The notes beneath the pieces were generated by a model. That model was not told the origin of the DNA. It did not search any database and saw only the letters and a program-made list of their open reading frames with translations. A stretch of 64,000 nucleotides of DNA from Bradyrhizobium genomosp. I (2014). GTDB taxonomy: Bacteria > Pseudomonadota > Alphaproteobacteria > Rhizobiales > Xanthobacteraceae. Location of the stretch: assembly GCF_000261685.1 (NCBI RefSeq), contig NZ_AJQE01000141.1, forward strand, positions 1 through 64,000, in the 5' to 3' direction. The stretch's first letter is position 1. Every line of letters starts with the position of its first letter. Positions 1 to 21,741 of the stretch are shown piece by piece. The translations under genes were made by a program, and so were the position numbers.

Positions 1-1207
1 GACGGCCTATCGTTCCGGGCGGCACGTCGCGCCCCTCATCATCGACGATCTTGGCCTCATAGCCCGGCACGGGCTTGCCGGTGGCGCCGGGGCGGATGTC
101 GTCCTCGGTCGCACTGATGAAGATGTGGAGCAGTTCGGTCGAACCGATGCCGTCCATCAGCTTGATTCCGGTCGCCTTGAGCCAGGCATCGAATGTCGGC
201 TTGGGCAGCGTCTCGCCGGCCGAGACGCATTTGCGAAGCGAGGAGATGTCGCGGCCCGAAAGCTTGCCGAGCATGGCGCGGTACGCGGTCGGCGCCGTGA
301 AGCAGACCGTGGTCTTGTATTGCTCGATCGCCAACAGCAGGTCGTCAGGCGTCGTCTTCTCCAGCACGACGAAGGAGGCGCCGATATGCATCGGAAACAG
401 CACTCCGCCGAAGCCGAACGTGAACGCGAGCGGCGCCGAGCCGATGAAGCGATCGTTCTGCTCGGCCCGCAGGATGTTGCGCGCGTAACCGTCGCAGACC
501 GCGAGCATGTCGCGGTGGAAATGCATGGTGCCCTTGGGATCGCCTGTCGTGCCCGAGGTGAAAGCGATCAGGCAGATGTCGTCGGACGCGGTATCGACAG
601 CCCTGAACTCAGGACTGGCATCCGCGATCAGCGCCTCGAGCGAATCGGCGGCGCCATTGCCCCAATAGACGACGCGCTCGAGACCGGGCGCTGCGGCCCT
701 CGCCTTCTCCATCTCCTCGGAGAGTTTTCCATCGCACAGTGCCAGCGTGATCGCCGCTTTCTGGATCGGATAGGACAGCTCCTTGGCGCGAAGCAGCGGC
801 ATCGTCGCCACGACGATGCCGCCAGCCTTGATCACTGCGAGATAGGTCGCAACCATCATGGGATTGTTGGCAGAGCGCAGCAGCACGCGGCCGCCGGGGA
901 CGAGACCAAGCTTGCCGACCAGCACGTTGGCGATGCGGTTCACGAGCGCCTGCAACTCGCGATAGGTGTAGCTGATGGCAGGGCTGATGACACAGGGTGC
1001 CTCGCCATGACCCTGCTCGACCCACCGATCGAGGAAATAGCTGACGCAGTTCAGCCGCGGGGCGTAGTGCAGCTCCGGCCGCGTGAAAACGAATTCGGGC
1101 CAGAGCTCGCGCGGCGGCAGATGCTGCCGCGCGAACGTATCGATATGGGCCGTCGCGGCGTTGCCGTCATGCGAGCCCGTCACTTGAACCTTGGCGGCGT
1201 TGGCCAT
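1..1207 (-). CDS. Benzoate/2-aminobenzoate-type CoA ligase (3' end outside window)
   Basis: ATP-dependent acyl-CoA synthetase of the ANL superfamily that would activate an aromatic carboxylate to its CoA thioester in the cytoplasm. About 402 residues from the N-terminus are visible. The AMP-binding P-loop reads FTSGTTGDPKGT, and a later DGIGSTELLHIF motif fits the benzoate/2-aminobenzoate-CoA ligase branch. The C-terminal lid domain lies beyond base 1. The start ATG at 1207 is preceded by AGGAGCG. The nearby fused monooxygenase/reductase (5221-7572) acts on 2-aminobenzoyl-CoA-type substrates in its family, so 2-aminobenzoate is the best substrate guess and salicylate or benzoate are alternatives. 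A MarR-type operator lies 51 bases upstream of the start. Confidence 0.85.
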   Translation of the reverse strand, partial: MANAAKVQVTGSHDGNAATAHIDTFARQHLPPRELWPEFVFTRPELHYAPRLNCVSYFLDRWVEQGHGEAPCVISPAISYTYRELQALVNRIANVLVGKLGLVPGGRVLLRSANNPMMVATYLAVIKAGGIVVATMPLLRAKELSYPIQKAAITLALCDGKLSEEMEKARAAAPGLERVVYWGNGAADSLEALIADASPEFRAVDTASDDICLIAFTSGTTGDPKGTMHFHRDMLAVCDGYARNILRAEQNDRFIGSAPLAFTFGFGGVLFPMHIGASFVVLEKTTPDDLLLAIEQYKTTVCFTAPTAYRAMLGKLSGRDISSLRKCVSAGETLPKPTFDAWLKATGIKLMDGIGSTELLHIFISATEDDIRPGATGKPVPGYEAKIVDDEGRDVPPGTIGR

Positions 1208-1258: not shown

Positions 1259-1272
1259 TTTTAGGCTTAAAA
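1259..1272. promoter_or_regulatory. Predicted MarR operator 1 (CoA ligase promoter)
   Basis: TTTTAGGCTTAAAA, a near-palindrome that is the exact reverse complement of the site at 7608-7621. It lies 51 bases upstream of the ligase start. The AT-rich site stands out in GC-rich surroundings and recurs before every transcription unit of this locus. Confidence 0.7.
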
Positions 1273-1355
1273 CAATTTGGCGCAATAGCGGATTTTGGGC
1301 ATGCCGTGCTTTTTCCTGCGGCAAAGGGGATTTGCGGCCTGCTCGGCCGACCTGC

Positions 1356-1886
1356 TTATGGCCGGCGGCGCGCGGCCGACTTCTGCGCCGACGCCTTGGT
1401 CTTGGCCAGCAGCCGCATCAATTCGCGCACGTCCTTCGGCGTCAGATCGGCGAAGAGATCGGCGATCCAGGTTTCGTGCTCCGCAGCCATCCTGCGAAAC
1501 TCGGCCCGCCCGAGCTTCGTGAGGCGGATCACCTGGACGCGGCGGTCCGTCTCCGACGTTCGCCGGTCGAGATGACCGGAGTCCACCAGCCGCTCCACGA
1601 GGCCGGTCACATTGCCGTTCGACACCATCATGCGCTTGGAGACGTCGGACAGCGTCATGCCATCGGGCGCCTTGTCGAGCTGCGCCATCAGATCGAAGCG
1701 CGGCAGCGTGACGTCGAACCGCTGCCGCAGCCGGCCGCGCACCTCGCCCTCGATCAACGTCGTGCAGGTCAGGAGCCGCAGCCACAACCGAAGCTCTTCG
1801 GCGTGGTCCTCCGGCGTTTCGACGGCCTTGGTCTCGGAATCGAGCATATTGATGCAGTCACTCACGGCCGGCATTGGCGCCCGCAC
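1356..1886 (-). CDS. MarR-family transcriptional regulator
   Basis: Winged-helix regulator of 176 residues, a typical MarR length. The central part (LPRFDLMAQLDKAPDGMTL, then SKRMMVSNGNVTGLVERL as recognition region, then RRTSETDRRVQVIRLT as wing) carries the signature of the family. Rhizobial relatives such as BadR and CouR control aromatic CoA pathways and respond to CoA thioesters. A matching operator overlaps its own upstream region (1900-1913), so autoregulation is likely. The start is uncertain: GTG at 1886 has GGGGA close by, and ATG at 1874 or 1847 are alternatives. It is most likely the local repressor of the catabolic genes on both sides, because the same palindrome precedes all of them. 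Confidence 0.9.
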   Translation of the reverse strand: MRAPMPAVSDCINMLDSETKAVETPEDHAEELRLWLRLLTCTTLIEGEVRGRLRQRFDVTLPRFDLMAQLDKAPDGMTLSDVSKRMMVSNGNVTGLVERLVDSGHLDRRTSETDRRVQVIRLTKLGRAEFRRMAAEHETWIADLFADLTPKDVRELMRLLAKTKASAQKSAARRRP

Positions 1887-1899
1887 GGATTCCCCAACG

Positions 1900-1913
1900 T
1901 TTTGAGCTTCAAA
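1900..1913. promoter_or_regulatory. Predicted MarR operator 2 (marR promoter)
   Basis: TTTTGAGCTTCAAA, a variant of the locus palindrome, 13 bases upstream of the marR start. Its position fits autorepression. Confidence 0.65.
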
Positions 1914-1969
1914 TAAATCGGAGCCGGCTGCAAGTCCAAAGCTGCAACAATCGACCGCACGTGAATTTC

Positions 1970-1983
1970 TTTAGGCTTCAAAT
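1970..1983. promoter_or_regulatory. Predicted MarR operator 3 (binding-protein promoter)
   Basis: TTTAGGCTTCAAAT followed by AATTGGCGCG. The same downstream context (AATTTGGCGC) follows operator 1. It serves the rightward unit starting with the periplasmic binding protein. Confidence 0.65.
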
Positions 1984-2124
1984 AATTGGCGCGCCGCTTG
2001 CATGCGCGCTACCCGCTTGGATGGCGACGCCTTGAGCTTGCTTGCCGCGGCAGCCGTCATCGGCATAAGCTTGGATTGGAGTACGCGGCTTGCAGCGCTC
2101 GCCGATAGTCACGAGGGACAGATC

Positions 2125-3300
2125 ATGAAGATGCAAATGACCTTGGCCGCAGCCACCGTGCTGCTTGGCACCGCGATGACCCCTGCCCTCGCCCAGGAGA
2201 AGATCAAGCTGGGCGTGATCGTGACCCTGTCGGGGCCCGCGGCCGCGCTCGGCCAACAGGTTCGCGACGGCTTTGCACTTGCGGTCAAGGATCTCGGCAG
2301 CAAGATGGGCGGCCGCGATGTCGAGGTCGTCGTGGTCGACGACGAGCTCAAGCCGGACGCGGCGGTGACCAAGGTCAAGGGTCTTCTGGAGCGCGAGAAG
2401 GTCGACTTCGTGGTCGGGCCAATCTTCTCCAACATTCTCCAGGCGATCCATCGGCCCGTCACGGAATCAAAAGTGTTCCTGATCAGCCCCAATGCCGGCC
2501 CGTCGACATTCGCCGGCAAAGACTGCAATCCGTTCTTCTTTGTGACGTCGTATCAGAACGATCAGGTGCACGAGATCCTCGGCAAGGTCGCGCAGGATCG
2601 CGGCTACAAGCGCATGTACCTGATGGTGCCGAACTATCAGGCCGGCAAGGATTCGGCGGCGGGATTCAAGCTCGACTACAAGGGCGAGATTGTCGAGGAA
2701 TCCTACATGCCGCTGAACACGCTGGACTTCCAGCCCGAGTTGTCCAAGATTTCCTCGCAGAAGCCCGATGCGCTGTTCACGTTCATGCCCGGCGGCCTCG
2801 GCGTCAATCTCGTCAAGCAGTACCGGCAAGCAGGCCTCGCCGACACCATTCCGGTGCTCTCGGCCTTCACGGTCGATGAGTCGACCTTACCGGCGCAGCA
2901 GGATGCGGCCGTCGGCATGTTCGGCGGCGCGAACTGGGCGCCCAATCTCGACAATCCCCAGAACAAGAAGTTCGTCGCAGCCTATGAAGCCGCCTACAAC
3001 ATCGTGCCCGGCACCTATGCTTTCCAGGCGTACGACGCCGCGATGCTGATCGACAGTGCCGTCAAGGCCGTGAAGGGCGACCTCTCGAACAAGGATGCTG
3101 TACGAGCTGCGCTGAAGAAGGCGGATTTCACCTCGCTTCGTGGTGCCTTCAAGTTCAACACCAACGGCTATCCGATCCAGGATTTTTACCTGACCAAGGT
3201 CGCCAAGCGTCCGGACGGCAAGTTCCAGACCGAGATCGTGCAGAAGGTGTTCGAGAACTACGGCGACCGCTATGCCAAGGACTGCAAGGCGGCGAACTAA
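2125..3300 (+). CDS. Branched-chain amino acid-type ABC substrate-binding protein
   Basis: Periplasmic type I binding protein (Peripla_BP_6 family, 391 residues). The N-terminus MKMQMTLAAATVLLGTAM is a signal peptide, with cleavage predicted after ALAQ. The mature start EKIKLGVIVTLSGPAA is typical of the LivK-like family, whose members include aromatic-acid binding proteins in rhizobia. Start ATG at 2125 is favoured by GAGGGA six bases upstream; a longer frame from 2002 would bury the signal peptide. No permease or ATPase genes are adjacent, so it is an orphan receptor or pairs with a transporter elsewhere. Under the predicted MarR operator 3, it probably binds the aromatic substrate of the locus. 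Confidence 0.9.
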   Translation: MKMQMTLAAATVLLGTAMTPALAQEKIKLGVIVTLSGPAAALGQQVRDGFALAVKDLGSKMGGRDVEVVVVDDELKPDAAVTKVKGLLEREKVDFVVGPIFSNILQAIHRPVTESKVFLISPNAGPSTFAGKDCNPFFFVTSYQNDQVHEILGKVAQDRGYKRMYLMVPNYQAGKDSAAGFKLDYKGEIVEESYMPLNTLDFQPELSKISSQKPDALFTFMPGGLGVNLVKQYRQAGLADTIPVLSAFTVDESTLPAQQDAAVGMFGGANWAPNLDNPQNKKFVAAYEAAYNIVPGTYAFQAYDAAMLIDSAVKAVKGDLSNKDAVRAALKKADFTSLRGAFKFNTNGYPIQDFYLTKVAKRPDGKFQTEIVQKVFENYGDRYAKDCKAAN

Positions 3301-3428
3301 AGCGCGATGCGATTAGGATGAATCGTCATCGCGCTTCAAGTTGTTGTTTAAGCATGATCTCCGCGCAAACGCGTTCCGCGTTTGTCGCGAGGGAAAACCG
3401 CTGCGCACTTTTCCGGATCATGCTTTAA
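3301..3428. repeat. Rhizobial intergenic palindromic element
   Basis: A compound palindrome directly after the binding-protein stop codon. The first hairpin has arms AGCGCGATG and CATCGCGCT. A larger hairpin follows, with arms TTTAAGCATGATC and GATCATGCTTTAAA enclosing an inner GCAAACGCG / CGCGTTTG stem. Closely similar sequences are abundant between genes in Bradyrhizobium (known from general experience, not searched here). It may attenuate or process the transcript between binding protein and cupin. Confidence 0.75.
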
Positions 3429-3453
3429 AGGGCGCGTATCGCGGAGGATTGCA

Positions 3454-3909
3454 ATGAAGAGCGAAATCACCGGCATCACCCGGGCCAATGAAGGCATCCA
3501 GGGCATCTCCTGGAACATCCTCGGCCAGACCTATGTGCCGAAGAGCTACGCCGAACACAGCTTCTCCTGGCATGCGACACTGCCGCCGGGCACGTTCGTG
3601 CCGCCGCACATTCATCCCGACCAGGATGAGTATCTCTACATGCTGGAGGGCAAGCTCGATTTCATGCTCGGCAACTCGGAGGCGCAGGCAACCGCCGGCG
3701 ACCTGATCCGGCTCGGCATGGGCGTGCCCCACGGCATCTTCAACAAGTCGGATCAGACCGCGAAGGTGCTGTTCTGGGTCTCGCCGAGCCGCAAGCTGTT
3801 CGACCTGTTCTGGGGCCTTCACAACATGAAGGAGCAGAAACCCGAGGACGTGGTGGCGATGGCCGCCGAGTTCAACATCCACTTCCTGCCGCCGCCTCCC
3901 GGCGGCTAG
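3454..3909 (+). CDS. Cupin-domain protein
   Basis: Single-domain cupin of 151 residues. Motif 1 (HIHPDQDEYLYMLEGKLDF) supplies two His and a Glu, and motif 2 (GDLIRLGMGVPHGIFN) supplies the last His, so a full metal site is present. GGAGGATTGCA precedes ATG 3454. Small cupins of this kind may be dioxygenases, isomerases or ligand sensors. Its position between the binding protein and the convergent flavin hydroxylase suggests a role in the same aromatic pathway, but the reaction cannot be named. Confidence 0.85.
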   Translation: MKSEITGITRANEGIQGISWNILGQTYVPKSYAEHSFSWHATLPPGTFVPPHIHPDQDEYLYMLEGKLDFMLGNSEAQATAGDLIRLGMGVPHGIFNKSDQTAKVLFWVSPSRKLFDLFWGLHNMKEQKPEDVVAMAAEFNIHFLPPPPGG

Positions 3910-3918
3910 CAGCGTATC

Positions 3919-5169
3919 TTAAGCGCGCACCGCGGCAAGGCCTGGCACTGCGGCGAAGCCGGCCTTGGTGGCGTAGCCGCGCACGATTGCCTCGCGCTGG
4001 GAATAGCTCAGGACGTTGTCGACATTGTCGAAGCCGTCGGGCGCGAGCTGCTCGACGGCGTCGATGACGCCCTCGGGGCCGCCGCGCCGGTTGGAGCGGA
4101 CAATGTCCGCCGTCATCGGCAGGCGCTTCCTCTCGTATTCGAGCAGCGCCTGGCGCGGATGCTCGGCACGCACCAGCGCATCCGCAAGGCAGCGCGCGTC
4201 GAGGATCGCCTGCGAGGCGCCGTTCGATCCCACCGGATACATGGGATGCGCGGCATCACCGAGCAGCGTGACGCGCCCGGACGACCAATACGGCAACGGA
4301 TCGCGGTCGCAGGTCGGATATTCGTAGAATTCGGGCGTCGCCGAGATCAGGCTCTTCACGTCGATATAGGGCACCGAGAAACGTGCGACATGCGGCATCA
4401 GCTCTTCGCGCCGGCCCGGCCGCGACCAGTCCTCCTTCCGCGGCGGCGGAGCGTTACCCTCGCCGACCTTCACCAGCACGGCCCAATTGGTGAGGCGGCT
4501 CGCCGGGCTTGATCCCTCCGCGATCGGATAGATCACCACCTTGGCATTGAGTCCGCCGGCCACGATCATCGATTTGCCGGTGAGGAACAACGGCCAGTCG
4601 CGCGCACCACGCCACAGCATCAGGCCGTTCCAGCATGGCGGCCCCTCGTCCGGAAACAGCGTCTCTCGGACGCGCGAATGGATGCCGTCGGCGCCGATCA
4701 GGATGTCGCCGCGCGCGGTGTGGACATGCGCGCCGGCACGATCGAAGAAGTAAGCGGTAACGCCGCCCTCGTCCTGCGTGAACGCACCAAGCCTGCAGCC
4801 GGTGTGAATTGCTTCCTGCCCGAGCCGCTCCTCGACCGCACGATGGATGACGCCCTGAAGACGGCCACGATGGATCGAGAATTGCGGCACGTCGTGGCCG
4901 GCGTCGATGCCCCGGGCTTCGCGCCAGACCTCCTGGCCGTGGCGGTTGAGGTAATAGAGCTGGTCGGTGCGGATCGCGACCTCGTCGAGCTTCTGGAGCA
5001 GGCCGAGCCCTGCAAGCTCGCGCATGGCGTGCGGCAGGGTGTTGATGCCGACCCCAAGCTCGCGAATCGTGTCGGCCTGTTCGTAAATCTCGCAATCCAG
5101 ACCGCGCGAGCGGAACATCAATGCCGTCGTGAGACCACCGATACCGCCACCGACGATAATCGCTTTCAT
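3919..5169 (-). CDS. FAD-dependent aromatic hydroxylase (salicylate hydroxylase/PhzS-like)
   Basis: Group A flavoprotein monooxygenase, 416 residues. The N-terminal dinucleotide fold is MKAIIVGGGIGGLTTALMF with an acidic residue in CEIYEQA. The middle DG motif is GADGIHSRVRE, and the GD motif is GDAAHPMYPVGSNGASQAI. These features fit NAD(P)H-dependent ring hydroxylases related to salicylate hydroxylase and PhzS-like enzymes. It lies 51 bases downstream of the fused monooxygenase/reductase and is probably co-transcribed with it. It may hydroxylate a side substrate or a free aromatic acid of the pathway. Confidence 0.88.
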   Translation of the reverse strand: MKAIIVGGGIGGLTTALMFRSRGLDCEIYEQADTIRELGVGINTLPHAMRELAGLGLLQKLDEVAIRTDQLYYLNRHGQEVWREARGIDAGHDVPQFSIHRGRLQGVIHRAVEERLGQEAIHTGCRLGAFTQDEGGVTAYFFDRAGAHVHTARGDILIGADGIHSRVRETLFPDEGPPCWNGLMLWRGARDWPLFLTGKSMIVAGGLNAKVVIYPIAEGSSPASRLTNWAVLVKVGEGNAPPPRKEDWSRPGRREELMPHVARFSVPYIDVKSLISATPEFYEYPTCDRDPLPYWSSGRVTLLGDAAHPMYPVGSNGASQAILDARCLADALVRAEHPRQALLEYERKRLPMTADIVRSNRRGGPEGVIDAVEQLAPDGFDNVDNVLSYSQREAIVRGYATKAGFAAVPGLAAVRA

Positions 5170-5220
5170 CGCCCTTACTCCACTCGAAACACAGGCAATG
5201 GGTTAACGTCGCACGGGCGG

Positions 5221-7572
5221 TCACTCCGCTGCAAGCGGCTTTGTCGCCTCCGCCTTGAGCTCGGCCCGCGTCTTCGGCTTAGCCTTAATTCTCAGCTCCT
5301 CGAGATCCTGCCGGTCGCGCACGCTGTTGCGGAAAATCTGATCTTTTCCGGGCAGATATTGCGGCGGGCAGAACGCGTCGTTTGCCCCGTACCAGGCGGC
5401 CGCCTTCATGGTGAAGAACGGGTCGACCAGATGCGGACGGCCGAGCGCGACGAGATCCGCCCGGCCGGCGGCCAAAATGGTATTGGCCTGATCCGCCGTC
5501 GTGATGTTGCCGACACACATGGTGGCCACGCGCGCCTCGTTGCGAACCTGGTCCGAAAATGGCGTCTGGAACATACGCCCGTACACCGGCAGCGTATCGC
5601 GCACGGTCTGCCCCGTCGAGACGTCGACGAGATCGACACCCGCTTCGGCGAAGGCGCGCGCGACGGCGACAGCGTCGTCGCCGGTGATGCCACCCTCCGC
5701 CCAGTCGGTTGCGGAAATACGCACCGACATCGGCTTGTGCGACGGCCACACCGCACGTAGCGCCTCGAAGATCTCGAGCGGGAATCGCAGCCGGTTGGCG
5801 AGCGTCCCCCCATACTCATCCGTGCGGGTATTGGTCAGCGGGGAGATGAAGCTGGCGAGCAGATAGCCGTGAGCACAGTGCAATTCGAGCATGTCGAAAC
5901 CGCAGCGCTCGCCGCGCTCGGCCGCCGCGACGAAAGCATCCCTCACCGCATTCATGCCGGCGCGATCGAGCTCGCGCGGCACCTGGCTATCGGGGAAATA
6001 GGGCAGCGGCGATGCCGAAAACACCTCCCAGCCGCCCTGCTCCAGGGGACGGTCCATGCCGTCCCACATCAGCTTGGTTGCGCCCTTGCGGCCGGCGTGG
6101 CCCAATTGAAGGCAGATTTTTGCGGCCGAGTTGCCGTGGACGAAATCCACGATGCGCCGCCATGCGGCTTCCTGCTCGTCGTTCCACAGGCCAGCGCAGC
6201 CGGGCGTGATCCGGGCGTCGCGGCTGACACAGGTCATCTCGGTGAAGATCAATCCGGCGCCGCCGATCGCGCGCGAGCCGTAATGCACGAGGTGGAAGTC
6301 TGTCGGCGCACCTTCCTTCGCCGAATACATGCACATCGGCGACATCACGGCGCGGTTGGCGATCTCCATCTCACGCAGCCGGAACGGCTGGAACAGCGGC
6401 ACCATCGGCCGATCGGTGTCGACATCGAAGCCGCTGCTGCGCACCTGCCTTGCAAACGACTTCTCGACCTCCGCCACGAAATCCGGGGCGCGGAGTTTCA
6501 GATTATCATAAGTGATCGCCTTCGAGCGCGTCATGACGCCGAAGGCGAACTGCACCGGATCGAAATCCCAGAAGCGGTCGACATGCTCGAACCAGACCAG
6601 CGAGACGTCGGCGGCATGCTGCGTCTTCTCTACCTCCTCGCGGCGGCCGTGCTCATAAATTTCCAGCGCCGCCGCGATGCTGGGCGCCTTCTCCATCGCT
6701 TCGGCCAGCGCAATCGCGTCTTCCATCGCGAGCTTGGTGCCCGAGCCGATCGAGAAATGCGCGCTCGCCTTGGCGTCGCCGAGCAGGACCATGTTGTCCT
6801 TGACCCAGCGCTTGCTGCGGATCATCGGGAAATTGCGCCACATCGAGCGGTTGGTCAGCAATCGATGCTCGCCGAGGAACCAGCCGAAGATATCAGCCAT
6901 CCGTGCGGCGGACTGGGCTTCATCCAGCCCCGTCAGGCCCGCCCGCTCGAACGTCTCCGGATCGGTCTCGAAGATCCAAGTCGAATGCCCGGCTTCATAC
7001 TGATAGGCATGGGCAATGAACGGCCCCCACTCGGTCTCCTGGAAGATGAAGGTGAAGGCATCGAGCGGCCTGGTCGAGCCCATCCAGGCGAACTTGTTGG
7101 AGCGGATGTCGACCTCCGGCTGGAAATGATCGACGTATTTCTCGCGGAAGCGGCTGTTGATGCCGTCGGCGATCAGGACGAGATCGGCATCGGCGAAGCG
7201 GGATTCGTCCTCGATGTCCACCTCGAAATGGAGGACGACGCCAAGCTCGCGGGCGCGCTCCTGAAGGATCAGAAGCAGCTTTCGGCGTGAGCAGCCGCAA
7301 AAGCCGTTGCCGCCGACCCGGTGCACCGTGCCGCGGAAATGCACGGCAATGTCGTCCCAATAGGCGAATTCCTGGGTGATACGCCGGTAGCTCGGAAGAT
7401 CGTGCTTTTCGAAATTGTCCAGCGTGGCATCCGAAAATACCACGCCGAAGCCGAAAGTGTCATCGGCCCGGTTGCGCTCATACACCGTGACGTCGGCGCC
7501 CGGGCGCTGCTTCTTGAGCAGGATCGCAGCGTAGAGACCCGCAGGTCCGCCACCGATGATCGCGACTTTCAT
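5221..7572 (-). CDS. Fused flavin monooxygenase / OYE-type reductase (2-aminobenzoyl-CoA or salicylyl-CoA type)
   Basis: A 783-residue two-domain enzyme. Residues 1 to about 400 form a FAD monooxygenase ([50 protein letters not shown]). From about residue 407 an Old Yellow Enzyme FMN barrel follows ([53 protein letters not shown]). This architecture is known from 2-aminobenzoyl-CoA monooxygenase/reductase of Azoarcus evansii, which hydroxylates and then reduces the ring without oxygenolytic cleavage. The name salicylyl-CoA 5-hydroxylase/oxidoreductase is also used for such proteins. ATG at 7572 has GAGG seven bases upstream. It is the committed enzyme of the locus and has its own MarR operator. 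Confidence 0.92.
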
Positions 7573-7607
7573 GGGAGCCTCGCCAATTCACCCGGCCACG
7601 AAAACTA

Positions 7608-7621
7608 TTTTAAGCCTAAAA
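7608..7621. promoter_or_regulatory. Predicted MarR operator 4 (monooxygenase/reductase promoter)
   Basis: TTTTAAGCCTAAAA, the best-formed palindrome of the set, 36 bases upstream of the fusion-enzyme ATG and downstream of the enoyl-CoA hydratase stop. This shows the monooxygenase unit has a promoter separate from the gene pair upstream. Confidence 0.7.
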
Positions 7622-7673
7622 TAATTTCGCGCAAGTCCCTGTTGCCGGTGCGGCCGCCGCCAAGGCGATCGGC

Positions 7674-8510
7674 CTAGTCGCCCCTGAAGACCGGCTTGAC
7701 CTTGTTGGCGAAAGCCTCGAAGGCGCGCTCGAAATCGGCCGTTGTCATGCACAGGGCTTGAGCCACGGCTTCCGCCTCGATCGCCTCCTCCACCGACATC
7801 GCCCATTCCATGGCCAGCATCCGCTTGGTCATGGTGTTGGCGAAGGTCGGTCCTTCAGCGACTTGCCTGGCCAGCAATTGCGCCTGGGGCAACACTTGCT
7901 CCGGCGTGACGATGCGGCTGAAGAAGCCCCAGCGCTCGCCCTCTTCCGCGGTCATGAACCGGCCGGTGTAGAGCAATTCCGAGGCGCGCGACTGCCCGAT
8001 GATCCGCGGCAGGATTGCGCAGGCGCCCATGTCGCAGCCGGCCAGCCCCACCTTGTTGAACAGGAACGCCACCTTGGCCCCGCTCGCCGCGAGGCGCATG
8101 TCCGAGGCCATGGCGACGATCGCCCCCGCCCCGGCGCAGATGCCCTGGACCGCGGCCACGATCGGCTGAGGGCACGCCCGCATCGCCTTGACGAGGTCGC
8201 CCGTCATCCGCGTGAAGGCGGTCAGCCCCTTGGTGTCCATCTTCACGAGCGGGCCGATGATCTCGAACACGTCGCCGCCCGACGAGAAATTGCCGCCGGC
8301 GCCGGTGACCACGATGGATTTGACCGCGTCGTCGAACGCGCAGGCGCGGAAGAAATCGGTCAGTTCCCGGTAGCTTTCGAACGTCAGCGGATTCTTTCGT
8401 TCAGGGCGGTTGAGCGTGACCGTCGCGACACCGTCGACCACGGCCAGCAGGAAGTGCTGCGGCGAGTAATCGGCAAGCGGGACGGTGACGGGATTGGCTG
8501 GTCTGCTCAT
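7674..8510 (-). CDS. Enoyl-CoA hydratase/isomerase family protein
   Basis: Crotonase-fold enzyme of 278 residues. The oxyanion-hole regions are [14 protein letters not shown] and [19 protein letters not shown], and [18 protein letters not shown] covers the usual active-site loop. ATG 8510 is chosen because GAGGAGATCGC precedes it; the frame stays open further upstream into the neighbouring gene. It would hydrate or open an unsaturated CoA thioester after dearomatisation of the ring. It lies 31 bases after the SDR and forms a two-gene unit with it. Confidence 0.92.
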
Positions 8511-8541
8511 GCGATCTCCTCGGTATGTTTGTTCCGCGCCG

Positions 8542-9303
8542 CTAAATCTCGCCGCCGGCGACTGCAATCGCCTGTCCGGTGATCGCACCAGCGCCCTCGC
8601 CGCACAACCAAAGCACAGCGTCCGCCACCTCTCGAGGTGTGATCAGCCGTCCCTGCGGATTATGCTTGGCGAGCTCGGCGATCGCCTGCTCGCGGCTCCG
8701 TCCCGTCTTCTTCATGATGTTTTCGATGCTGCTGGCGACCAGATCGGTATCAGTGAACCCCGGGCAAACCGCATTCACGGTCACATTGCTGCCGGCCACC
8801 TCGAGGGCAAGCGAACGAACGAGACCAACCACAGCGTGCTTCGCCGCGCTGTATGCGCTGACATAAGCATAGCCCTTGAGCCCCGCCGTCGACGCAATCA
8901 CGACGATGCGGCCATAGGGACGATCCTTCATGCCCGGCAGCACGCCGTGGATGGCATGGACCACGCCCATGAAATTGATGTCCATCATGCGAGCAAACAG
9001 AGCGCTGTCCGATTTCGCAAATGGCGCGGATTCGGCACTCCCCGCATTGGCGATCAGGAAATCGATCGGCTTTCGCGCATGGGCCTCTGCGATGGCGGCT
9101 TTCAGAGCGATCTCGTTCGAGACGTCGGCGACAGCCGCGAAGTGCGCGGCGCCTGCCTTGACCGCCTCTTCGAGGGTGGCAGCATTCCGGCCAAGTACCG
9201 TCACAGTCGCGCCGGCACCGACGAGAGCCGCCGCGATTGCACGGCCGATGCCTTTACCGCCACCGGTCACCAGCGCGTGCGGCGAGTGCGGCAATCCGGA
9301 CAT
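8542..9303 (-). CDS. Short-chain dehydrogenase/reductase (3-hydroxyacyl-CoA dehydrogenase-like)
   Basis: Classical SDR of 253 residues. The cofactor motif is [20 protein letters not shown], the NAG equivalent is LIANAGS, and the catalytic region runs from the Ser in [22 protein letters not shown] to its YxxxK. NAD(P)H-dependent oxidation of a hydroxy-CoA intermediate is the likely role. It is the first gene of a leftward pair with the enoyl-CoA hydratase, with a predicted MarR operator 41 bases upstream. Confidence 0.9.
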
Positions 9304-9344
9304 GCGCTGGCTCCCTCAGATCTGCGGATCGTTCTTTCGATATA

Positions 9345-9358
9345 TTTTAACCTTCAAG
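9345..9358. promoter_or_regulatory. Predicted MarR operator 5 (SDR promoter)
   Basis: TTTTAACCTTCAAG, the weakest match of the set (arms TTTAA and TTCAA), 41 bases upstream of the SDR ATG in a divergent intergenic region. Confidence 0.5.
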
Positions 9359-9422
9359 CTTTTGCAACGAAAGCGCAGACCGACCATCGCGAGCGCGTGC
9401 ACGATACTCGGCCCGAAAATTG

Positions 9423-9436
9423 CTTTAAGTATAAAA
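9423..9436. promoter_or_regulatory. Predicted MarR operator 6 (rightward beta-oxidation operon)
   Basis: CTTTAAGTATAAAA followed by TTATCGC, resembling operator 4 and its AATTTCGC context. It lies 61 bases upstream of the alpha/beta hydrolase start and would control the five-gene rightward operon. Confidence 0.6.
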
Positions 9437-9497: not shown

Positions 9498-10313
9498 GTG
9501 TCGCAGCCTGTGCCAATGATAACAAGGGACGGACGCTTCGCCTATGAAGCCGCGGGCGATCCGGGCGCGATACCTCTGATCTTCCTGCATGGCATCGGCG
9601 GCGCGGCACGAGCCTGGCGGCGGCAGCTTGCCACATTCGGCAGCCGCTTCCGCGCGATCGCATGGGACATGCCGGGCTATGGCGGATCGGCACCACTGAC
9701 CAGCGTCAGTATCGCTGCCCTGGCCGATGCGCTTCAGCAATTCATCGAGCAGCTTGGTGCGGCCAAGCCTATTCTGGTCGGCCATTCCATTGGCGGCATG
9801 ATCGTCCAGAAATGGCTGGTGCAGTCCCCCAAACTGGCGCGTGCGGTCGTACTGGCACAGACCAGCCCGGCCTTCGGCAAGGCCGACGGCGATTGGCAGA
9901 AATCATTCATCGCTGCACGGCTCGGGCCGCTCGATCGCGGGGAGACCATGAAGTCGCTGGCGCCATCGCTGGTGAAGGAGCTCGTCGGTGACGATCCCGA
10001 TCCGAACGGGATGGAGCTTGCACGCGAGTGCATGGGAAGCGTGCCCGAGGCAAGCTATCGCGCCATGATGCTGGCTCTCATCGGCTTCGATCAGCGCAGC
10101 ACGCTTGGGGATATTTCCGTCCCCACACTGCTGCTGTCCGGCTCCAGGGACAACAATGCGCCCGCGCCAATGATGGCAAAGACGGCGACCTATATCCCCG
10201 GAGCTGAATATGTCGAGCTCGCCGGCGTCGGCCATCTCGCCAATCTTGAAGGCCCCGGTGCCTTTGACGAAGCTCTCGGCCGGTTTCTAAACTCTCTCGC
10301 GATCAAAGCCTAA
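9498..10313 (+). CDS. Alpha/beta hydrolase
   Basis: Alpha/beta-hydrolase fold, 271 residues. The oxyanion motif is FLHGIGGAARAW, the nucleophile elbow GHSIGGM, the acid is in LLSGSRDNN, and the His is in VELAGVGHLANLE. GTG at 9498 follows AAGAGG at a good distance; ATG 9516 is an alternative start. In aromatic pathways such enzymes hydrolyse ring-opened diketones, enol lactones or thioesters. It begins the rightward operon, 12 bases before the acyl-CoA dehydrogenase, and may open the alicyclic ring or release CoA. Confidence 0.88.
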   Translation: MSQPVPMITRDGRFAYEAAGDPGAIPLIFLHGIGGAARAWRRQLATFGSRFRAIAWDMPGYGGSAPLTSVSIAALADALQQFIEQLGAAKPILVGHSIGGMIVQKWLVQSPKLARAVVLAQTSPAFGKADGDWQKSFIAARLGPLDRGETMKSLAPSLVKELVGDDPDPNGMELARECMGSVPEASYRAMMLALIGFDQRSTLGDISVPTLLLSGSRDNNAPAPMMAKTATYIPGAEYVELAGVGHLANLEGPGAFDEALGRFLNSLAIKA

Positions 10314-10325
10314 GGTAACTGCGCG

Positions 10326-11615
10326 ATGACCATGCAAGTCAGCAAGACGATTGGCACGACCAACAAGGTCGCGCTTGATGCGCCGATCTTCGATCCCGTC
10401 GCGTTCCGCTTGAGCGACGAGCAGGCCGGCATCGTTGCGCGCGCCCGCGAGATCGGCCAGAGCGTGTTCGCCGCTCGCGCCGCGAGCTACGATCGCGAGG
10501 CGACTTTCCCGACGGAGAATTATCGCGACCTGCATCGCGTCGGCCTGCTCGGCATTGCCGTCCCCAAGAAGCACGGCGGCCTCGGCGCGAACTACCAGAC
10601 CTATGCTTTGGCAGCCGCCGAGATCGGCCGTTATTGCGGAGCAACCGCGCTGACCTGGAACATGCATGTCTGCTCGACCCTGTGGTCGGGTCCCCTCGCC
10701 GACGATCTGGACATGGATACAGAAACCCGCGCGGAACACGAGCGACGCCGCGCGGTCCACTACAAACGCATCGTCGCGGACGGTGCGATCTATTCGCAGC
10801 CCTTCTCCGAAGGGGGCGCCGCGGCGGCAGGCGGCGTCGCCTTTGGTACGGAAGCAAGGCCGGTCGCGGGTGGCTGGATCGTCAACGGCAAGAAGATCTT
10901 TGCATCGCTTTCCGGTCATGCCGACTATTACGGCGTGCTCTGCACCGAGATCGAGGAAGGCGAGAAGGCATCGCGCCGCAACACCCTTTACCTCGCAATT
11001 CCCGCAAAATCAGAAGGCATCTCGGTCGTCGGTGACTGGGATCCGCTCGGAATGCGCGGCACGGTCTCGCGGACGCTGCTGTTCAAGGACGTGTTCGTGC
11101 CGGAGGATTCCGCGCTGATGCCGCGCGGCGTCTATTTCCAGGCAGCTCAGCGCTGGCCGCACATGTTTCTGACGCTGTCGCCGACCTATATGGGCCTCGC
11201 GCAAGCCGCCTATGATTTCACCGTACGTTACTTGCGCGGCGAGGTTCCGGGCATGCCGCCGGTCAAGCGGCGGATGTATCCGACCAAGCAGATCGCGGTC
11301 GCGCAGATGCAGATCAAGCTGGAGCAGATCAAGTCGATCTGGTTCCAGGCGGTCACCGAGGCGCGCGCCAACCCGAGCAAGGAGCAGGTGTTGCGGGCCT
11401 ATGCCGCGCAATACTCGGTGATGGAAGGCGCCAATGAGCTCGCCGCGCTCGCGATCCGCACCTGCGGCGGTCAGGCCATGCTCAGGTCGCTGCCGCTGGA
11501 GCGGATCTATCGCGACAGCCGTTGCGGCTCGCTGATGCTGCCCTGGACCGCCGAGCTCTGCCTCGATCGGATCGGGCGCGAAGCGCTGTACGAGGCCGGC
11601 GAAACGGACGACTGA
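10326..11615 (+). CDS. Acyl-CoA dehydrogenase
   Basis: FAD-dependent acyl-CoA dehydrogenase fold, 429 residues. It shows the N-terminal helical domain (LHRVGLLGIAVPKKHGGLGA), the beta-domain (AIYSQPFSEGGAAAAGG, WIVNGKKIFAS) and the C-terminal helical domain (EGANELAALAIRTCGGQAML). The tail LMLPWTAELCLDRIGREAL is typical of aromatic-pathway relatives. It would desaturate an alicyclic or dicarboxylic CoA thioester and pass electrons to ETF. The spacing to the next gene is two bases, so translation is probably coupled. Confidence 0.9.
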   Translation: MTMQVSKTIGTTNKVALDAPIFDPVAFRLSDEQAGIVARAREIGQSVFAARAASYDREATFPTENYRDLHRVGLLGIAVPKKHGGLGANYQTYALAAAEIGRYCGATALTWNMHVCSTLWSGPLADDLDMDTETRAEHERRRAVHYKRIVADGAIYSQPFSEGGAAAAGGVAFGTEARPVAGGWIVNGKKIFASLSGHADYYGVLCTEIEEGEKASRRNTLYLAIPAKSEGISVVGDWDPLGMRGTVSRTLLFKDVFVPEDSALMPRGVYFQAAQRWPHMFLTLSPTYMGLAQAAYDFTVRYLRGEVPGMPPVKRRMYPTKQIAVAQMQIKLEQIKSIWFQAVTEARANPSKEQVLRAYAAQYSVMEGANELAALAIRTCGGQAMLRSLPLERIYRDSRCGSLMLPWTAELCLDRIGREALYEAGETDD

Positions 11616-11617
11616 CC

Positions 11618-13153
11618 GTGGACCTCTGCAGCCTGATCGACCGCAACGCGGCGTTCGCGCCACACAAGACGGCTATTGCCTTCGAAGGGAAGCGGCTGAG
11701 CTATGCCGCGTTCGCCGCGCGCATCGAGCGGACTGCGACCGCCTTGAAGCAGGAGCTCGGCGTCGGCCAAGGCGACCGTATCGCGATCCTGAGCCTGAAC
11801 CAGCCGGATTATCTGGTTCTGCTCTACGCGTGCGCGCGGCTCGGGGCGATGCTGGTGCCGCTGAACTGGCGGCTGGCTGTCGCCGAGCAGTTGTTCATCC
11901 TCGGCGATGCCGGCGCCAAGGTTCTCGTGCTTGAGCAGGCCTTTGAGGGCGTTCTTCACGAGCTTGCGCAGTCCGCGCCGGGGACTGCCGTTGTCGGCCT
12001 CGACTTCGCGCCGCCCTGCGGCACAAGATTCGAAGATCTGCTGGCTGGAAGCGGCGGCACCAGCCGAAATCCGCACACCGATCTCTCATGCCCGCTGCTG
12101 ATCGTCTACACGTCGGGAACGACCGGGCGTCCGAAAGGCGCGGTGCTGCGCCAGGAGGCGCTGTTCTGGAACGGCGTCATGAGCCAGCACATGCACAACA
12201 TGACGTCCGACGACCATGTGCTGACCGTGCTGCCATTCTTCCACGTCGGCGGCCTCAACATCCAGACCACGCCGGCGCTCCAGCTGGGCGCGACGGTCAC
12301 GGTCCATGCGCGCTTTGCGCCGGATACCGCGCTTGCGGCCATCGCACGGGAACGGCCGACGCTCACGGTGATGGTGCCCGCGATCATCCAGGCCGTAAGC
12401 GAGCATCCCGCCTGGGCGACCGCTGATCTTTCGTCACTCAAGGCCGTCGCCACCGGCTCGACCATCGTGCCTCCGCACCTGATCGAGCGTTTTGTCGCGC
12501 GCGACGTCCCGGTTCTTCAGGTCTACGGCTCGACCGAGACTTGCCCGATCGCAATCTACACAAGGCTCGGCGGCGATCTTTCGCGCGTGGGATCGACCGG
12601 CCTTGCCGGCCTGTGCTGTGAGGCGAAGGTGATCGATCAGGCTGGCAATGAGATGCCGGCGGGCACGCCGGGCGAGATCGCGGTGCGCGGTCCCAACGTG
12701 TTCTTCGAATATTGGGGCAACGACGCCGCAACGCGCGACGCCTTGCATGACGGCTGGTACCGCACCGGCGATATCGGCCTGTGCGATGCAGACGGCTATT
12801 TCTGGGTCCGCGACCGCAAGAAGAACATGATCATATCCGGCGGGGAAAACGTCTATCCGGCCGAGGTCGAGCGCGTCCTGCTCGAACACCCCGATGTCAG
12901 CGAATGCGCCGTGATCGGCCGGCCGGACCCGCGCTGGGACGAGGTGCCGATCGCCTATGTCATTGCGAGATCCGGCTGCCGGCTCGAAGCGGACGAATTG
13001 AGGGCGCATCTTCAGGCGCAACTCGCGCGCTACAAGGTTCCACGCGAGATCGTCTTCGTTACCGATCTGCCGCGGACGGCGCTGGGCAAGGTCCAGCATT
13101 TCCTGCTGAAGCAGCTTGATGTGCAATCACGCAGGCAAGGAGAAGCGTCTTGA
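11618..13153 (+). CDS. Acyl-CoA synthetase (AMP-forming)
   Basis: ANL-superfamily ligase of 511 residues. P-loop IVYTSGTTGRPKGAVL, A5 motif YGSTETCPI, A7/A8 motif YRTGDIGLCDADGYFWVRDR with KKNMIISGGENVYPAEVE, and the catalytic Lys in ALGKVQHF are all present, so it should be active. The GTG start at 11618 is two bases after the dehydrogenase stop; a longer frame from 11522 overlaps that gene and is unlikely. It may activate a second aromatic acid or a ring-cleavage product. It resembles fatty-acid/cinnamate-type ligases more than the ligase at the window start. Confidence 0.9.
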   Translation: MDLCSLIDRNAAFAPHKTAIAFEGKRLSYAAFAARIERTATALKQELGVGQGDRIAILSLNQPDYLVLLYACARLGAMLVPLNWRLAVAEQLFILGDAGAKVLVLEQAFEGVLHELAQSAPGTAVVGLDFAPPCGTRFEDLLAGSGGTSRNPHTDLSCPLLIVYTSGTTGRPKGAVLRQEALFWNGVMSQHMHNMTSDDHVLTVLPFFHVGGLNIQTTPALQLGATVTVHARFAPDTALAAIARERPTLTVMVPAIIQAVSEHPAWATADLSSLKAVATGSTIVPPHLIERFVARDVPVLQVYGSTETCPIAIYTRLGGDLSRVGSTGLAGLCCEAKVIDQAGNEMPAGTPGEIAVRGPNVFFEYWGNDAATRDALHDGWYRTGDIGLCDADGYFWVRDRKKNMIISGGENVYPAEVERVLLEHPDVSECAVIGRPDPRWDEVPIAYVIARSGCRLEADELRAHLQAQLARYKVPREIVFVTDLPRTALGKVQHFLLKQLDVQSRRQGEAS

Positions 13154-14238
13154 AGATTGCAGTTCTGGGTGGGGGCAACGGCTCTTTCGCGGCCGCGGGT
13201 GATTTTGCGCTGTCGGGGAATGAGGTGCGGCTTTGGCGCCGCGATGCCGATCAGGTCGCGGCACATCGGGCCGCGGGGGCGAACATCCTGGTCAAGGATC
13301 ACAACGGCCGCCACGACGTGAAGCTCGCGCTGGTCACGACCGATATCGCCCAAGCCGTCGATGGCTCTGAGTTGATCCTCTGCCCCGCTCCCGCCTTCGC
13401 GCAAGCAGATATTGCCCGCCTGCTCGCCTCGCATCTGCGAGACGGCCAGGTCGTTTTTCTGCCGCCGGCGACATTCGGCTCGATGATCTTCGCCAAGGCT
13501 GCGCAGGATGCTGGGAACCTTGCGAAGGCTAGCTTTGCCGAGACCGGCACCCTGCCCTGGCTCACCCGCAAGCACGGGCCATTCGAGGTCGCGATCACCA
13601 TCCGCGCCAAGCGGCTTCCGGTCGGCGTGTTCCCGCTCGATCGGGCGCCCCACGCACTCGAAATCATCGGACGCGCTTTCCCGGGCGTGATCGAACCATG
13701 CGGAGATGCGCTGTCGGGGGCGCTGATGAATGCAGGCCCCATCATCCATCCGCCGTTGATCGTGATGAACGCAGGGCCGATCGAACATTTCGAACGCTGG
13801 GACATCCACAAGGAAGGCACCCAAGCCGCGATACGGCGGGTCACCGACGCGCTCGATGCCGAGCGAATCGCGGTGCGCGAGGCATTCGGCTATGGCGCAC
13901 CGCATTTCCCGCTTGCTCACCACTATGCGAAGGAAGGCGAGATCTGGATGTATGGCCGGGGCTCGCACGACCGGCTGACCGATTCCGGCGACTGGCGCGA
14001 ACGGATCGTGCTAACCGAGCACCGCTACATGCGCGAGGATCTGCGGCTCGGGCTGTCGTTGCTGGCTTCTGTCGCCGATCTGGCTGGCGTGGTCACGCCG
14101 CTGGCCAAAGCGTTCCTGTCGATCGGCGGCGCGCTTTGCGGCGAGGATTTTGCGCAAGGCGGCCGAACGCTCGAGACGCTGGGGCTCGGCAATCTCAGCA
14201 AGGCTGAATTGCAGACGCTGCTTCGCAATGGATTCTGA
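13150..14238 (+). CDS. NAD/NADP octopine/nopaline dehydrogenase-family protein
   Basis: A 362-residue protein with N-terminal Rossmann motif KIAVLGGGNGSFAAAGDFAL and a C-terminal region containing NAGPIIHPPLIVMNAGPIEH, characteristic of the opine dehydrogenase family. Those enzymes couple an amino acid to a 2-oxo acid, or perform related reductions. It starts with TTG at 13150, overlapping the stop of the ligase (TTGA). Its place inside a CoA-dependent aromatic operon is unusual. It could handle an amino-substituted intermediate, but this is inference. Confidence 0.85.
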   Translation: MKIAVLGGGNGSFAAAGDFALSGNEVRLWRRDADQVAAHRAAGANILVKDHNGRHDVKLALVTTDIAQAVDGSELILCPAPAFAQADIARLLASHLRDGQVVFLPPATFGSMIFAKAAQDAGNLAKASFAETGTLPWLTRKHGPFEVAITIRAKRLPVGVFPLDRAPHALEIIGRAFPGVIEPCGDALSGALMNAGPIIHPPLIVMNAGPIEHFERWDIHKEGTQAAIRRVTDALDAERIAVREAFGYGAPHFPLAHHYAKEGEIWMYGRGSHDRLTDSGDWRERIVLTEHRYMREDLRLGLSLLASVADLAGVVTPLAKAFLSIGGALCGEDFAQGGRTLETLGLGNLSKAELQTLLRNGF

Positions 14239-14241
14239 TCG

Positions 14242-15234
14242 ATGACCAATCGCGTCAATATCGCCTGCCTCGGTGCTGGCCGCATGGGACGCGGCATCGC
14301 CGTCGCGTTCGCCTATGCGGGCCACAGCGTCACGATGATCGACGTCAAGGCGCGCTCCGCGGAGGAATTTGCCAGGCTGGAAGCGGACGCACGCGGCGAG
14401 GTCAGGAAGACCTTTGCCAGCCTGTCGAAGCTGGGGCTCTTGACCGAGGCGGATGTCGAGCCGCTCATCGCGCGGGTCTCGGTGGTCGCGGCCGGCGGAA
14501 GCGGTTCAGCGCTCTCTGAGGCCGGCATGGTGTTCGAGGGCGTTCCCGAGGTCGTCGAACTCAAGCGGGAGGTGCTGGCGGCCGCCTCAAGGCAAGTCGG
14601 CCCGGACACGATCATGGCATCGACGACATCGACCATTCTCGTCGATGATCTCTCCGGCGCGATCGTGAACCCTCGTCGCTTTCTCAACGTGCATTGGCTC
14701 AATCCAGCCTACCTGATCCCGCTGGTCGAAGTTTCCCCCGGCAAGTCCACCGACCCCGCCATCATCGAGGAAGTCAAAGCTCTGCTCGAAGGCATCGGCA
14801 AGGTGCCCGTTGTCTGCGCGGCGACGCCCGGCTTCATCGTCCCGCGCATCCAGGCACTCGCGATGAACGAGGCCGCACGCATGGTCGAGGAAGGCGTCGC
14901 CAGCGCGGAGGAGATCGACAAGGCGATCCGCTACGGCTTCGGTTTCCGCTATGCCGTGCTCGGACTGCTCGAATTCATCGATTGGGGCGGTGGCGACATT
15001 CTCTACTACGCGAGCCAGTATCTGGAAGGCGCGCTCGGCAGCGAGCGCTATCGGGCGCCGGACGTCATTTTTCACAACATGCATGAAGGCCGGATCGGCC
15101 TGCGCACTGGCGCAGGATTTCTCGATTATTCCGGGCTCGACGTCGACGCCTATCGCGCGAAGCGGCTCCAAGCCATGGTCGACCTGCTCCGGCACTTCGG
15201 ACTGGCGCGCCCCCCGGTGCTCGACCGCAACTAG
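14242..15234 (+). CDS. 3-hydroxyacyl-CoA dehydrogenase
   Basis: Bacterial 3HCDH of 330 residues. The NAD-binding motif is IACLGAGRMGRGIAVAFAYAG, the catalytic region reads RFLNVHWLNPAYLIPLVEV with its His, and the C-terminal dimerisation domain holds TPGFIVPRIQALAMNEAARM. Oxidation of a 3-hydroxyacyl-CoA to the oxo form is the expected reaction. It is the last gene of the rightward operon, and its stop codon overlaps the stop of the convergent NicX-like gene within the tetranucleotide CTAG. Confidence 0.93.
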   Translation: MTNRVNIACLGAGRMGRGIAVAFAYAGHSVTMIDVKARSAEEFARLEADARGEVRKTFASLSKLGLLTEADVEPLIARVSVVAAGGSGSALSEAGMVFEGVPEVVELKREVLAAASRQVGPDTIMASTTSTILVDDLSGAIVNPRRFLNVHWLNPAYLIPLVEVSPGKSTDPAIIEEVKALLEGIGKVPVVCAATPGFIVPRIQALAMNEAARMVEEGVASAEEIDKAIRYGFGFRYAVLGLLEFIDWGGGDILYYASQYLEGALGSERYRAPDVIFHNMHEGRIGLRTGAGFLDYSGLDVDAYRAKRLQAMVDLLRHFGLARPPVLDRN

Positions 15235-16277: not shown

Positions 16278-16309
16278 GGTTCTCTCCCGCTTTTCAGGAT
16301 TCTTGTTTG

Positions 16310-18701: not shown

Positions 18702-18824
18702 CCCGTCTCTCGTCTCACTCGCGCGAACATTCCTCGATAAACCTGCTGAACGTCTTCCGTCAGCGGCACAAGCTTAGCAAGAAGCCTGCCAGACAGGCGG
18801 CCGTTTTCGCACCCGTGGGGTGCG

Positions 18825-20519: not shown

Positions 20520-20593
20520 ATCTGCATCTTCTTCATGCAGCGTCCCGGATGATCCGGGACGCCACGATCTTACGCTCGACAATTCCCCCGCTG

Positions 20594-21577: not shown

Positions 21578-21741
21578 CGTGCCACTCCGCTGCTCCGGCG
21601 CCGACCGGCGCTCCCAACCCGACCGCCTCAAATGTTTCATGGTTCAAACAATCAGGCAAGCCATGCAAGCCAGGCGGTTTTGCCGTCCGATGCGCAATGT
21701 ATGGTAAAGCGGCGTCGCATTGCGACAGAAGGAGGCAACCT

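Follow-up and report, generated by a model that had tools for sequence, protein, structure and literature searches.

The gene cluster and its six palindromes

The 64,000-nucleotide stretch described here, referred to as the window, comprises bases 1–64000 of contig C141 (NZ_AJQE01000141.1), one of the 508 contigs that make up a genome of 7.92 Mb, and begins at the contig edge. It comes from a soil bacterium akin to the root-nodule rhizobia and placed in Bradyrhizobium by its relatives. Its first 15 kb hold a gene cluster for the coenzyme A (CoA)-dependent breakdown of an aromatic acid, probably anthranilate (2-aminobenzoate), together with a gene for a MarR-type regulator and six TTTTAAGCYTAAAA-like palindromes, which are proposed to be the operators of this regulator.

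The first gene, LIG1 (2..1207, minus strand), is cut by the contig and window edge. It is recognized by its open frame and orthologues as a member of the benzoate-CoA-ligase family, probably a 2-aminobenzoate-CoA ligase, and a full-length orthologue (L265:5874-7565) passes TIGR02262. The regulator gene marR (1356..1886, minus strand) starts with GTG at 1886 or further in, and its product contains a MarR-type winged helix-turn-helix domain with both Pfam models, MarR_2 (PF12802) and MarR (PF01047), above gathering score. On the plus strand there follow a branched-chain-amino-acid-type periplasmic binding protein, SBP (2125..3300, Pfam Peripla_BP_6), and, in the same unit, a cupin protein (3454..3909, Pfam Cupin_2). 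ACMR (5221..7572, minus strand) is a two-domain flavin monooxygenase/old-yellow-enzyme protein, both domains of which match and which exceeds the cut-off of NF006101; an FAD monooxygenase (3919..5169, minus strand, NF005720 above cut-off) lies downstream in its unit. The short-chain dehydrogenase SDR (8542..9303, Pfam adh_short) is first in a minus-strand unit with ECH (7674..8510), an enoyl-CoA hydratase family protein with NF006107 above cut-off. The last unit, on the plus strand behind the sixth palindrome, encodes the α/β hydrolase ABH (9498..10313) and the acyl-CoA dehydrogenase ACD (10326..11615), both assigned by Pfam, the second AMP-forming CoA ligase LIG2 (11612..13153, NF004837 above cut-off) and two dehydrogenases recognized as open frames with orthologues and named by eye: an NAD-dependent, opine-dehydrogenase-like enzyme (13150..14238) and a 3-hydroxyacyl-CoA-dehydrogenase-like protein (14242..15234).

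ACMR is a probable 2-aminobenzoyl-CoA monooxygenase/reductase. Because the NCBIfam name of its model NF006101 is salicylyl-CoA 5-hydroxylase/oxidoreductase, the substrate of the cluster is one that we infer, and the same name speaks for a cluster that would degrade salicylate via salicylyl-CoA instead. This is unlikely, since an unlinked kynurenine operon with the same operator, described below, would make anthranilate, and the architecture fits the 2-aminobenzoyl-CoA monooxygenase/reductase route of Azoarcus evansii. In the available part of its description that route also runs from a CoA ligase through a flavin monooxygenase/reductase to β-oxidation, and that part differs in naming no regulator (PMC4539516).

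The palindromes, to which no strand is assigned, start at 1259, 1900, 1969, 7608, 9345 and 9423, as the earlier note on this DNA had stated save for the third, which it placed at 1970. Operator 1 (1259..1272, TTTTAGGCTTAAAA) lies 5' of LIG1 and operator 4 (7608..7621, TTTTAAGCCTAAAA) 35 bp 5' of ACMR; the two are exact reverse complements, as had also been observed. Operator 2 (1900..1913, TTTTGAGCTTCAAA) is 5' of marR, where it would serve autoregulation, and operator 3 (1969..1982, CTTTAGGCTTCAAA) lies between marR and the binding-protein gene in a region common with operator 2, so that the regulator has palindromic sites near its own gene, a trait of the MarR family. Operators 5 (9345..9358, TTTTAACCTTCAAG) and 6 (9423..9436, CTTTAAGTATAAAA), both weak by sequence, are found 5' of SDR and of the hydrolase/β-oxidation unit, respectively. 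The placement fits one site per transcription unit, as previously claimed, with the qualification that sites 2 and 3 lie together in the divergent region between marR and the binding-protein gene, as do sites 5 and 6 between SDR and the hydrolase gene, and that some relatives keep one site in such a region. The recurring flanks mentioned in the earlier note amount to a partial likeness among AATTTGGCGC at site 1, AATTTCGCGC at site 4 and AATTGGCGC at site 3.

A pattern search of the window with up to 3 mismatches gave 8 strand-matches, compared with 0.47 ± 0.66 in 100 shuffles (largest 2); site 5, having more than 3 mismatches to the consensus, is absent from its list. A symmetric 14-column matrix was built from the six window sites alone, which score 20.0–25.0, values that are not independent of the training on these same sites. 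No other place in the 64 kb scores at least 15, and of 100 dinucleotide-shuffled versions of the window, one contained a match of at least 18. Exact matches to YTTTRRGCYTMAAA occur at 5 places in the organism's own genome, of which 4 belong to the cluster and the fifth is C65:8530. With up to 2 mismatches the genome contains 165 strand-matches as against 317 for the backward control, so that sites 5 and 6 cannot be distinguished by sequence alone; they rest on conservation and not on their own sequence.

Conservation of the sites and reach of the proposed regulon

Related loci in Bradyrhizobium and near kin were collected with ACMR as the query, the best 80 of 591 being used, and an upstream match was defined as a score of at least 15 with the window-only matrix within 260 bp of the gene. 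Such a match is present 5' of LIG1 in all 50 loci with a readable upstream region (at least 18 in every one), of marR in 73/73, SBP in 73/73, ACMR in 74/80, SDR in 75/75 and ABH in 55/59. The ACMR site is missing in L085, L088, L092, L095 (a contig end), L098 and L105, and the ABH site in L090, L094, L101 and L102. Judged by eye, few columns in the upstream alignments of the nearest 44–46 relatives are as well conserved as those of the operator, although with relatives this close conservation is no proof of function by itself.

The boundary test that holds is provided by ACMR, the site of which follows the unit boundary. Among the 76 loci with both genes, it is present in 71 of the 73 with an ECH–ACMR gap of at least 76 bp and gone in all three (L088, L092 and L105) in which the gap is closed to 12–13 bp and ACMR looks joined to the SDR–hydratase unit. 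A strict tie between the second site of the SDR/ABH region and the hydrolase operon was also considered, one site being found in all 16 loci with SDR and without ABH, and was dropped as 10 of the 59 loci with ABH have one site too.

The one exact genome match outside the cluster, C65:8530 (CTTTAAGCTTAAAA), starts 90 bp 5' of a kynurenine operon that encodes an α/β hydrolase, a tryptophan 2,3-dioxygenase (TIGR03036 above cut-off) and a kynureninase (TIGR01814 above cut-off). The hydrolase (L141:8620-9432) passes an NCBIfam model named hormone-sensitive lipase, a name that is probably misleading: because of its operon neighbours, tryptophan dioxygenase and kynureninase, it is likely to be a kynurenine formamidase. 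In 117 Bradyrhizobium genomes the hydrolase or a homologue was found in 113, the MarR in 113 and both in 112; G041, G096 and G114 have neither and G089 has MarR only.

The 117 hydrolase matches fall into three arrangements. In arrangement (a), with 65 members, the operon lies away from marR and the hydrolase is 77–100% identical; a site of at least 20.7 starts at −79 to −91 in all 50 examined. Arrangement (b), with a hydrolase 51–55% identical, was found and examined 21 times and has a site of at least 15 in 19, including all 15 in which it lies 7.5–9 kb from marR (15.5–22.3). In arrangement (c) the hydrolase is 37–42% identical; of the 31 found, 19 were examined, and in all 19 the hydrolase gene immediately follows marR in the same orientation, marR itself being preceded by a site of at least 15.7. 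Since all three arrangements carry sites, different versions and positions of the hydrolase come under one operator. The regulon thereby appears, with good comparative support, wider than the earlier note had it and takes in an unlinked tryptophan-to-anthranilate operon.

The specificity of the operator was assessed with the strict pattern YTTTARGCYTAAAR in 12 other Bradyrhizobium genomes, where matches were placed by the marR and hydrolase coordinates and, for ACMR, by its 6-kb spacing from marR. The pattern occurs at 36 places, 34 of which are LIG1, ACMR or kynurenine sites, compared with 6 places for the backward pattern. One of the two extra matches, in G036 (L271:13101), is a perfect TTTTAAGCTTAAAA located 18 bp 5' of a second ACMR–SDR–hydratase operon in an indole-type locus. 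Genes for a cyclase, for FAD enzymes, for another type of MarR and for a protein resembling indolepyruvate oxidoreductase, all named by eye, are also present in that locus. The other, in G094 (L274:9520), is a perfect operator about 200 bp 5' of a livHMGF operon, with a flank (AATTG..TGTTTTC) similar to the promoter region of LIG1, of which it looks like a copy. The idea that livHMGF supplies the missing permease for the orphan SBP of the cluster was dropped and the site taken as chance or a local copy, as the site is found in none of 30 other genomes; in this liv-gene negative control 60 genomes were searched, 59 had the gene and 30 were read, with a best score of 12.6.

Across the class, relatives of the MarR (E up to 1e-30) are present in 48 of 289 genomes, the organism's own included. 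Thirty-three alphaproteobacterial loci were read, representing 30 of the 47 other genomes and 3 same-order loci from a phylum search, and 24 of them have a match of at least 18 within 300 bp 5' of a pathway gene. There are 25 matches in 25.4 kb of upstream DNA (0.98/kb) compared with 3 in 538 kb elsewhere (0.0056/kb). The regulator commonly occurs in SDR-marR-hydratase-...-ligase arrays, joined in L232, L233, L237, L240 and L241 by kynurenine genes, and the best form of the operator, TTTTAAGCTTAAAA, is found in L216, L224, L231 and L260. In loci from outside the class, 17 of 18 of which were read, a match of at least 18 is present in 3/17 and of at least 15 in 7/17, and 12 of the 17 have a core of oxygenase, hydratase and ligase, 11 of these without kynurenine genes in the stretch read. 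Two such loci with a different recognition helix (L242:12051 and L248:12020) contain GTTTAGGCTTAAAC-like palindromes near the ACMR start, which may be a shifted form of the operator in which the outer base pair is altered.

These counts also bear on the proposal that the repeats represent AT-rich promoter cores, common to genes that are expressed together, and not regulator sites. On the gene strand sites 1 and 4 read TTGCGC-16-TAAAAT, which may include a −10 element and might place the operator over the promoter core. However, 300 symmetric column permutations of the matrix, equal in composition, averaged 0.4 matches as against 25 (the largest, 24, from mostly near-equal column swaps), strict matches in the 12 genomes are almost confined to regulon sites, and consensus promoter scans found no −35/−10 match at the sites, which makes promoter cores a highly unlikely explanation. 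That TTGCGC in the recurring flank is a −35 box likewise found no support in the scans and is kept as a possibility only.

Two further places deserve mention. The best non-regulon match of the window, at 21635 (TTTCATGGTTCAAA, 14.8), coincides with the beginning of a gene for a transporter binding protein and is probably due to chance. Next to the cluster, a minus-strand group (15231–21640) has no operator of at least 15; named by eye, its members are a gene resembling an aminopeptidase, genes for an ABC transporter (two permeases, an ATPase and a binding protein) and a dihydroxyacid-dehydratase-like gene. In the rest of the genome, C46:15014 (L270:15014; TTTTAAGCCTATAA) is 5' of a rare operon that by eye encodes a flavin monooxygenase, an FMN reductase, a hydrolase, a cupin and an MFS transporter. 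A flavin-monooxygenase-like gene of this type is present in 3 of 40 genomes (L268 and L269 included), all three of which keep the site (17.7–19.9). A gene for an apparent LuxR-type regulator (by eye) is divergent there, so that the site is no more than a candidate for the regulon.

The regulator, its probable operator and its proposed ligand

The window MarR very probably acts as a local repressor dedicated to the CoA-dependent catabolism of anthranilate and leaves the DNA on binding an intermediate of the pathway, most likely 2-aminobenzoyl-CoA. The operator and the regulon are well supported by comparison across genomes, while binding by the window MarR, repression rather than activation and the nature of the ligand are what we infer from it. 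A dedicated MarR regulon, as the earlier note had proposed, is upheld by the 80 related loci, the class-wide matrix, the near-exclusivity in 12 genomes and the agreement of helix type, and was drawn too narrowly, as it left out the kynurenine operon and a related regulator clade.

The helix comparison covered 50 loci outside Bradyrhizobium (L212-L261), with an operator defined as a score of at least 18. Residues 82 and 91 of the MarR are placed in the putative recognition helix by analogy with the family. Loci with Arg at position 91 have the operator in 24/32 cases, those with Gln in 0/13 and those with other residues in 3/5; within the non-alphaproteobacterial loci alone the ratio is 3/4 as against 0/13 for Gln. 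The type of recognition helix thus agrees with the presence of the operator in a manner that is suggestive and, because it represents about one evolutionary change, is not statistical proof.

These data reduce the chance that the palindromes are real operators of another transcription factor. Such a factor could be invoked in that the MarR is tied to the DNA by comparison and that the related regulator clade has the same operator in other genomes. Yet the organism's own genome has one MarR of the window kind, the next matches being 27–32% identical, regulator and operator occur in the same locus in other alphaproteobacteria, and loci with the different recognition helix lack the operator, so that another factor is quite unlikely.

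In the proposed mechanism, a homodimer of the window MarR would bind the 14-bp palindrome, best as TTTTAAGCTTAAAA, at the promoters of all units in the cluster, that of marR among them, and also at the unlinked kynurenine operon, the source of anthranilate from tryptophan. When anthranilate appears, basal ligase would convert it to 2-aminobenzoyl-CoA, which (or, less likely, anthranilate itself) would bind the MarR and release it from the DNA. Uptake, activation, ring attack, β-oxidation and the supply of anthranilate from tryptophan would then be switched on together.

A doubtful variant retains the same regulon and makes free anthranilate, or kynurenine, the inducer in place of the CoA thioester. 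It draws on the presence in the regulon of the kynurenine operon, which is upstream of anthranilate, and on the binding of the free acid indole-3-acetic acid (IAA) by IadR-type MarRs (PMC9613470). On the other side, CoA-thioester induction is described as an emerging common property of the MarRs of lignin-derivative pathways (PMC5487221). Kynurenine is improbable as a common signal given the 11 of 17 non-alphaproteobacterial loci that combine the regulator with ACMR, ECH and LIG1 without kynurenine genes in the stretch read, and because of these the common core of oxygenase, hydratase and ligase points to 2-aminobenzoyl-CoA or anthranilate as the signal.

Several observations weigh against a MarR repressor released by 2-aminobenzoyl-CoA. 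The comparative data do not separate 2-aminobenzoyl-CoA from anthranilate as the ligand, and the link between MarR and operator comes from comparison. One site per unit is not universal: the marR/SBP and SDR/ABH pairs have common upstream regions, and separate sites were therefore recounted, giving two sites of at least 15 in 51 of 73 marR/SBP regions and one in 22, and two separate sites in 49 of 59 SDR/ABH regions. L085 and L098 have an open ECH–ACMR gap and yet no ACMR site of at least 15. Eight of the 32 Arg91 loci have no site of at least 18, and the 13 Gln rows form one clade, which confounds the helix agreement with descent. G016, an 89% complete genome, has the hydrolase with its kynurenine site and no MarR match. 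Some of the six arrangement (b) copies farther from marR or on another contig have weaker or absent sites, their scores being mixed (G070 18.1, G023 17.6, G108 16.0, G012 15.2, G084 13.0, G065 10.6). Finally, with the consensus promoter scans empty, an overlap of the operators with −35/−10 elements is no more than a possibility.

MarR control of CoA-dependent aromatic pathways is already known. CouR of Rhodococcus jostii, known also from R. palustris, is a MarR repressor of p-hydroxycinnamate catabolism, a CoA-thioester pathway, and its operator is an inverted repeat close to the gene for CouR itself (PMC4737184, PMC5487221). What releases CouR is p-coumaroyl-CoA; neither p-coumarate nor CoA does so (PMC4737184). 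The window shares the trait of the CouR and FerC type, with operators before the units of a CoA-dependent aromatic pathway that the MarR presumably regulates, and differs in having six local sites and an unlinked operon. The precedent of BadR and CouR given in the earlier note applies, for CouR, to the way of working and not to descent: among solved structures the best chain for the window MarR is 3boq (E 1.7e-20), and the CouR chain 6c28 (E 0.0034) stands behind more than 50 other distinct chains.

A comparison can also be made with KynR of Pseudomonas, a kynurenine-responsive regulator of the Lrp/AsnC type. It likewise controls kynurenine-pathway genes, whereas the window regulator is of the MarR type, Pfam giving winged-helix MarR models and no Lrp/AsnC model.

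A literature search, partial in that most subscription journals lay outside it, did not turn up a MarR regulon described for 2-aminobenzoyl-CoA or kynurenine genes. A 2-aminobenzoyl-CoA/kynurenine regulon would hence add to the known MarR control, and a prediction for IadR2 adds interest.

A related regulator, probably of auxin-degradation loci

The iad loci for degradation of the auxin IAA contain a second MarR, IadR2, which does not bind IAA and the loss of which leads to faster IAA degradation (Conway et al. 2022, PMC9613470); in the available part of that report neither its ligand nor its DNA site is identified. The first regulator, IadR of B. japonicum, has the PDB code 7KYM (PMC11630574). 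It has in common with the window MarR the MarR fold and the repressor role proposed for the latter, with differences in that the sequence match is weak (E 0.0019) and that its genes start with IAA and those of the window cluster with anthranilate.

The 7KYM stretch matches 25 of the 117 Bradyrhizobium genomes (E up to 1e-40). Each of these 25 has, in addition, a 44–53% identical paralogue of the window MarR, which at E below 1e-40 is found in 26 genomes. Paralogue and IadR are on the same contig 20–39 kb apart in 20 genomes, and on separate contigs in 5 drafts. By this position the paralogue is probably IadR2, and the palindrome upstream of its gene is probably its operator: a site of at least 17.5 lies within about 250 bp upstream in 20 of the 22 loci read (out of 26), the exceptions being L324 and L326. 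The gene divergent from the paralogue is another ACMR in 12 of the 22 loci and an SDR, whole or partial, in four.

In the phylogenetic tree the paralogue clade, which is probably the IadR2 (IadR2/MarR_50) clade of Bradyrhizobium, adjoins that of the window MarR with a support of 91/83, short of the starred level. It resembles the window MarR in this placement and in the same palindrome 5' of its gene, and differs in being accompanied by IadR. A search of the window genome itself found no IadR match and no IadR2-type paralogue.

The first MarR of L259 was considered as an IadR and dropped, its best solved match being 3cjn with 7KYM second; for this reason L259 and L271 are called indole-type loci and not iad loci. 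At E 1e-25 it had no match in a family outside the class, of which 150 genomes were searched, an empty result that shows nothing by itself.

The balance of evidence leans modestly towards one regulator family and the operator TTTTAAGCTTAAAA tying both the tryptophan–kynurenine and the IAA (iad) routes to CoA-dependent anthranilate breakdown. IadR2 would then bind the palindrome in front of the gene that encodes it, in many cases within the stretch that separates this gene from a divergent ACMR gene, and would sense the anthranilate end product as 2-aminobenzoyl-CoA and not IAA.

With this analysis the CoA-dependent route of anthranilate breakdown in soil alphaproteobacteria gains a regulator together with an exact operator and a candidate ligand, and the tryptophan–kynurenine genes are found to be marked by the same operator as the anthranilate cluster. 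For IadR2 of auxin-degrading root bacteria it predicts a DNA site and a ligand that lend themselves to a direct test.

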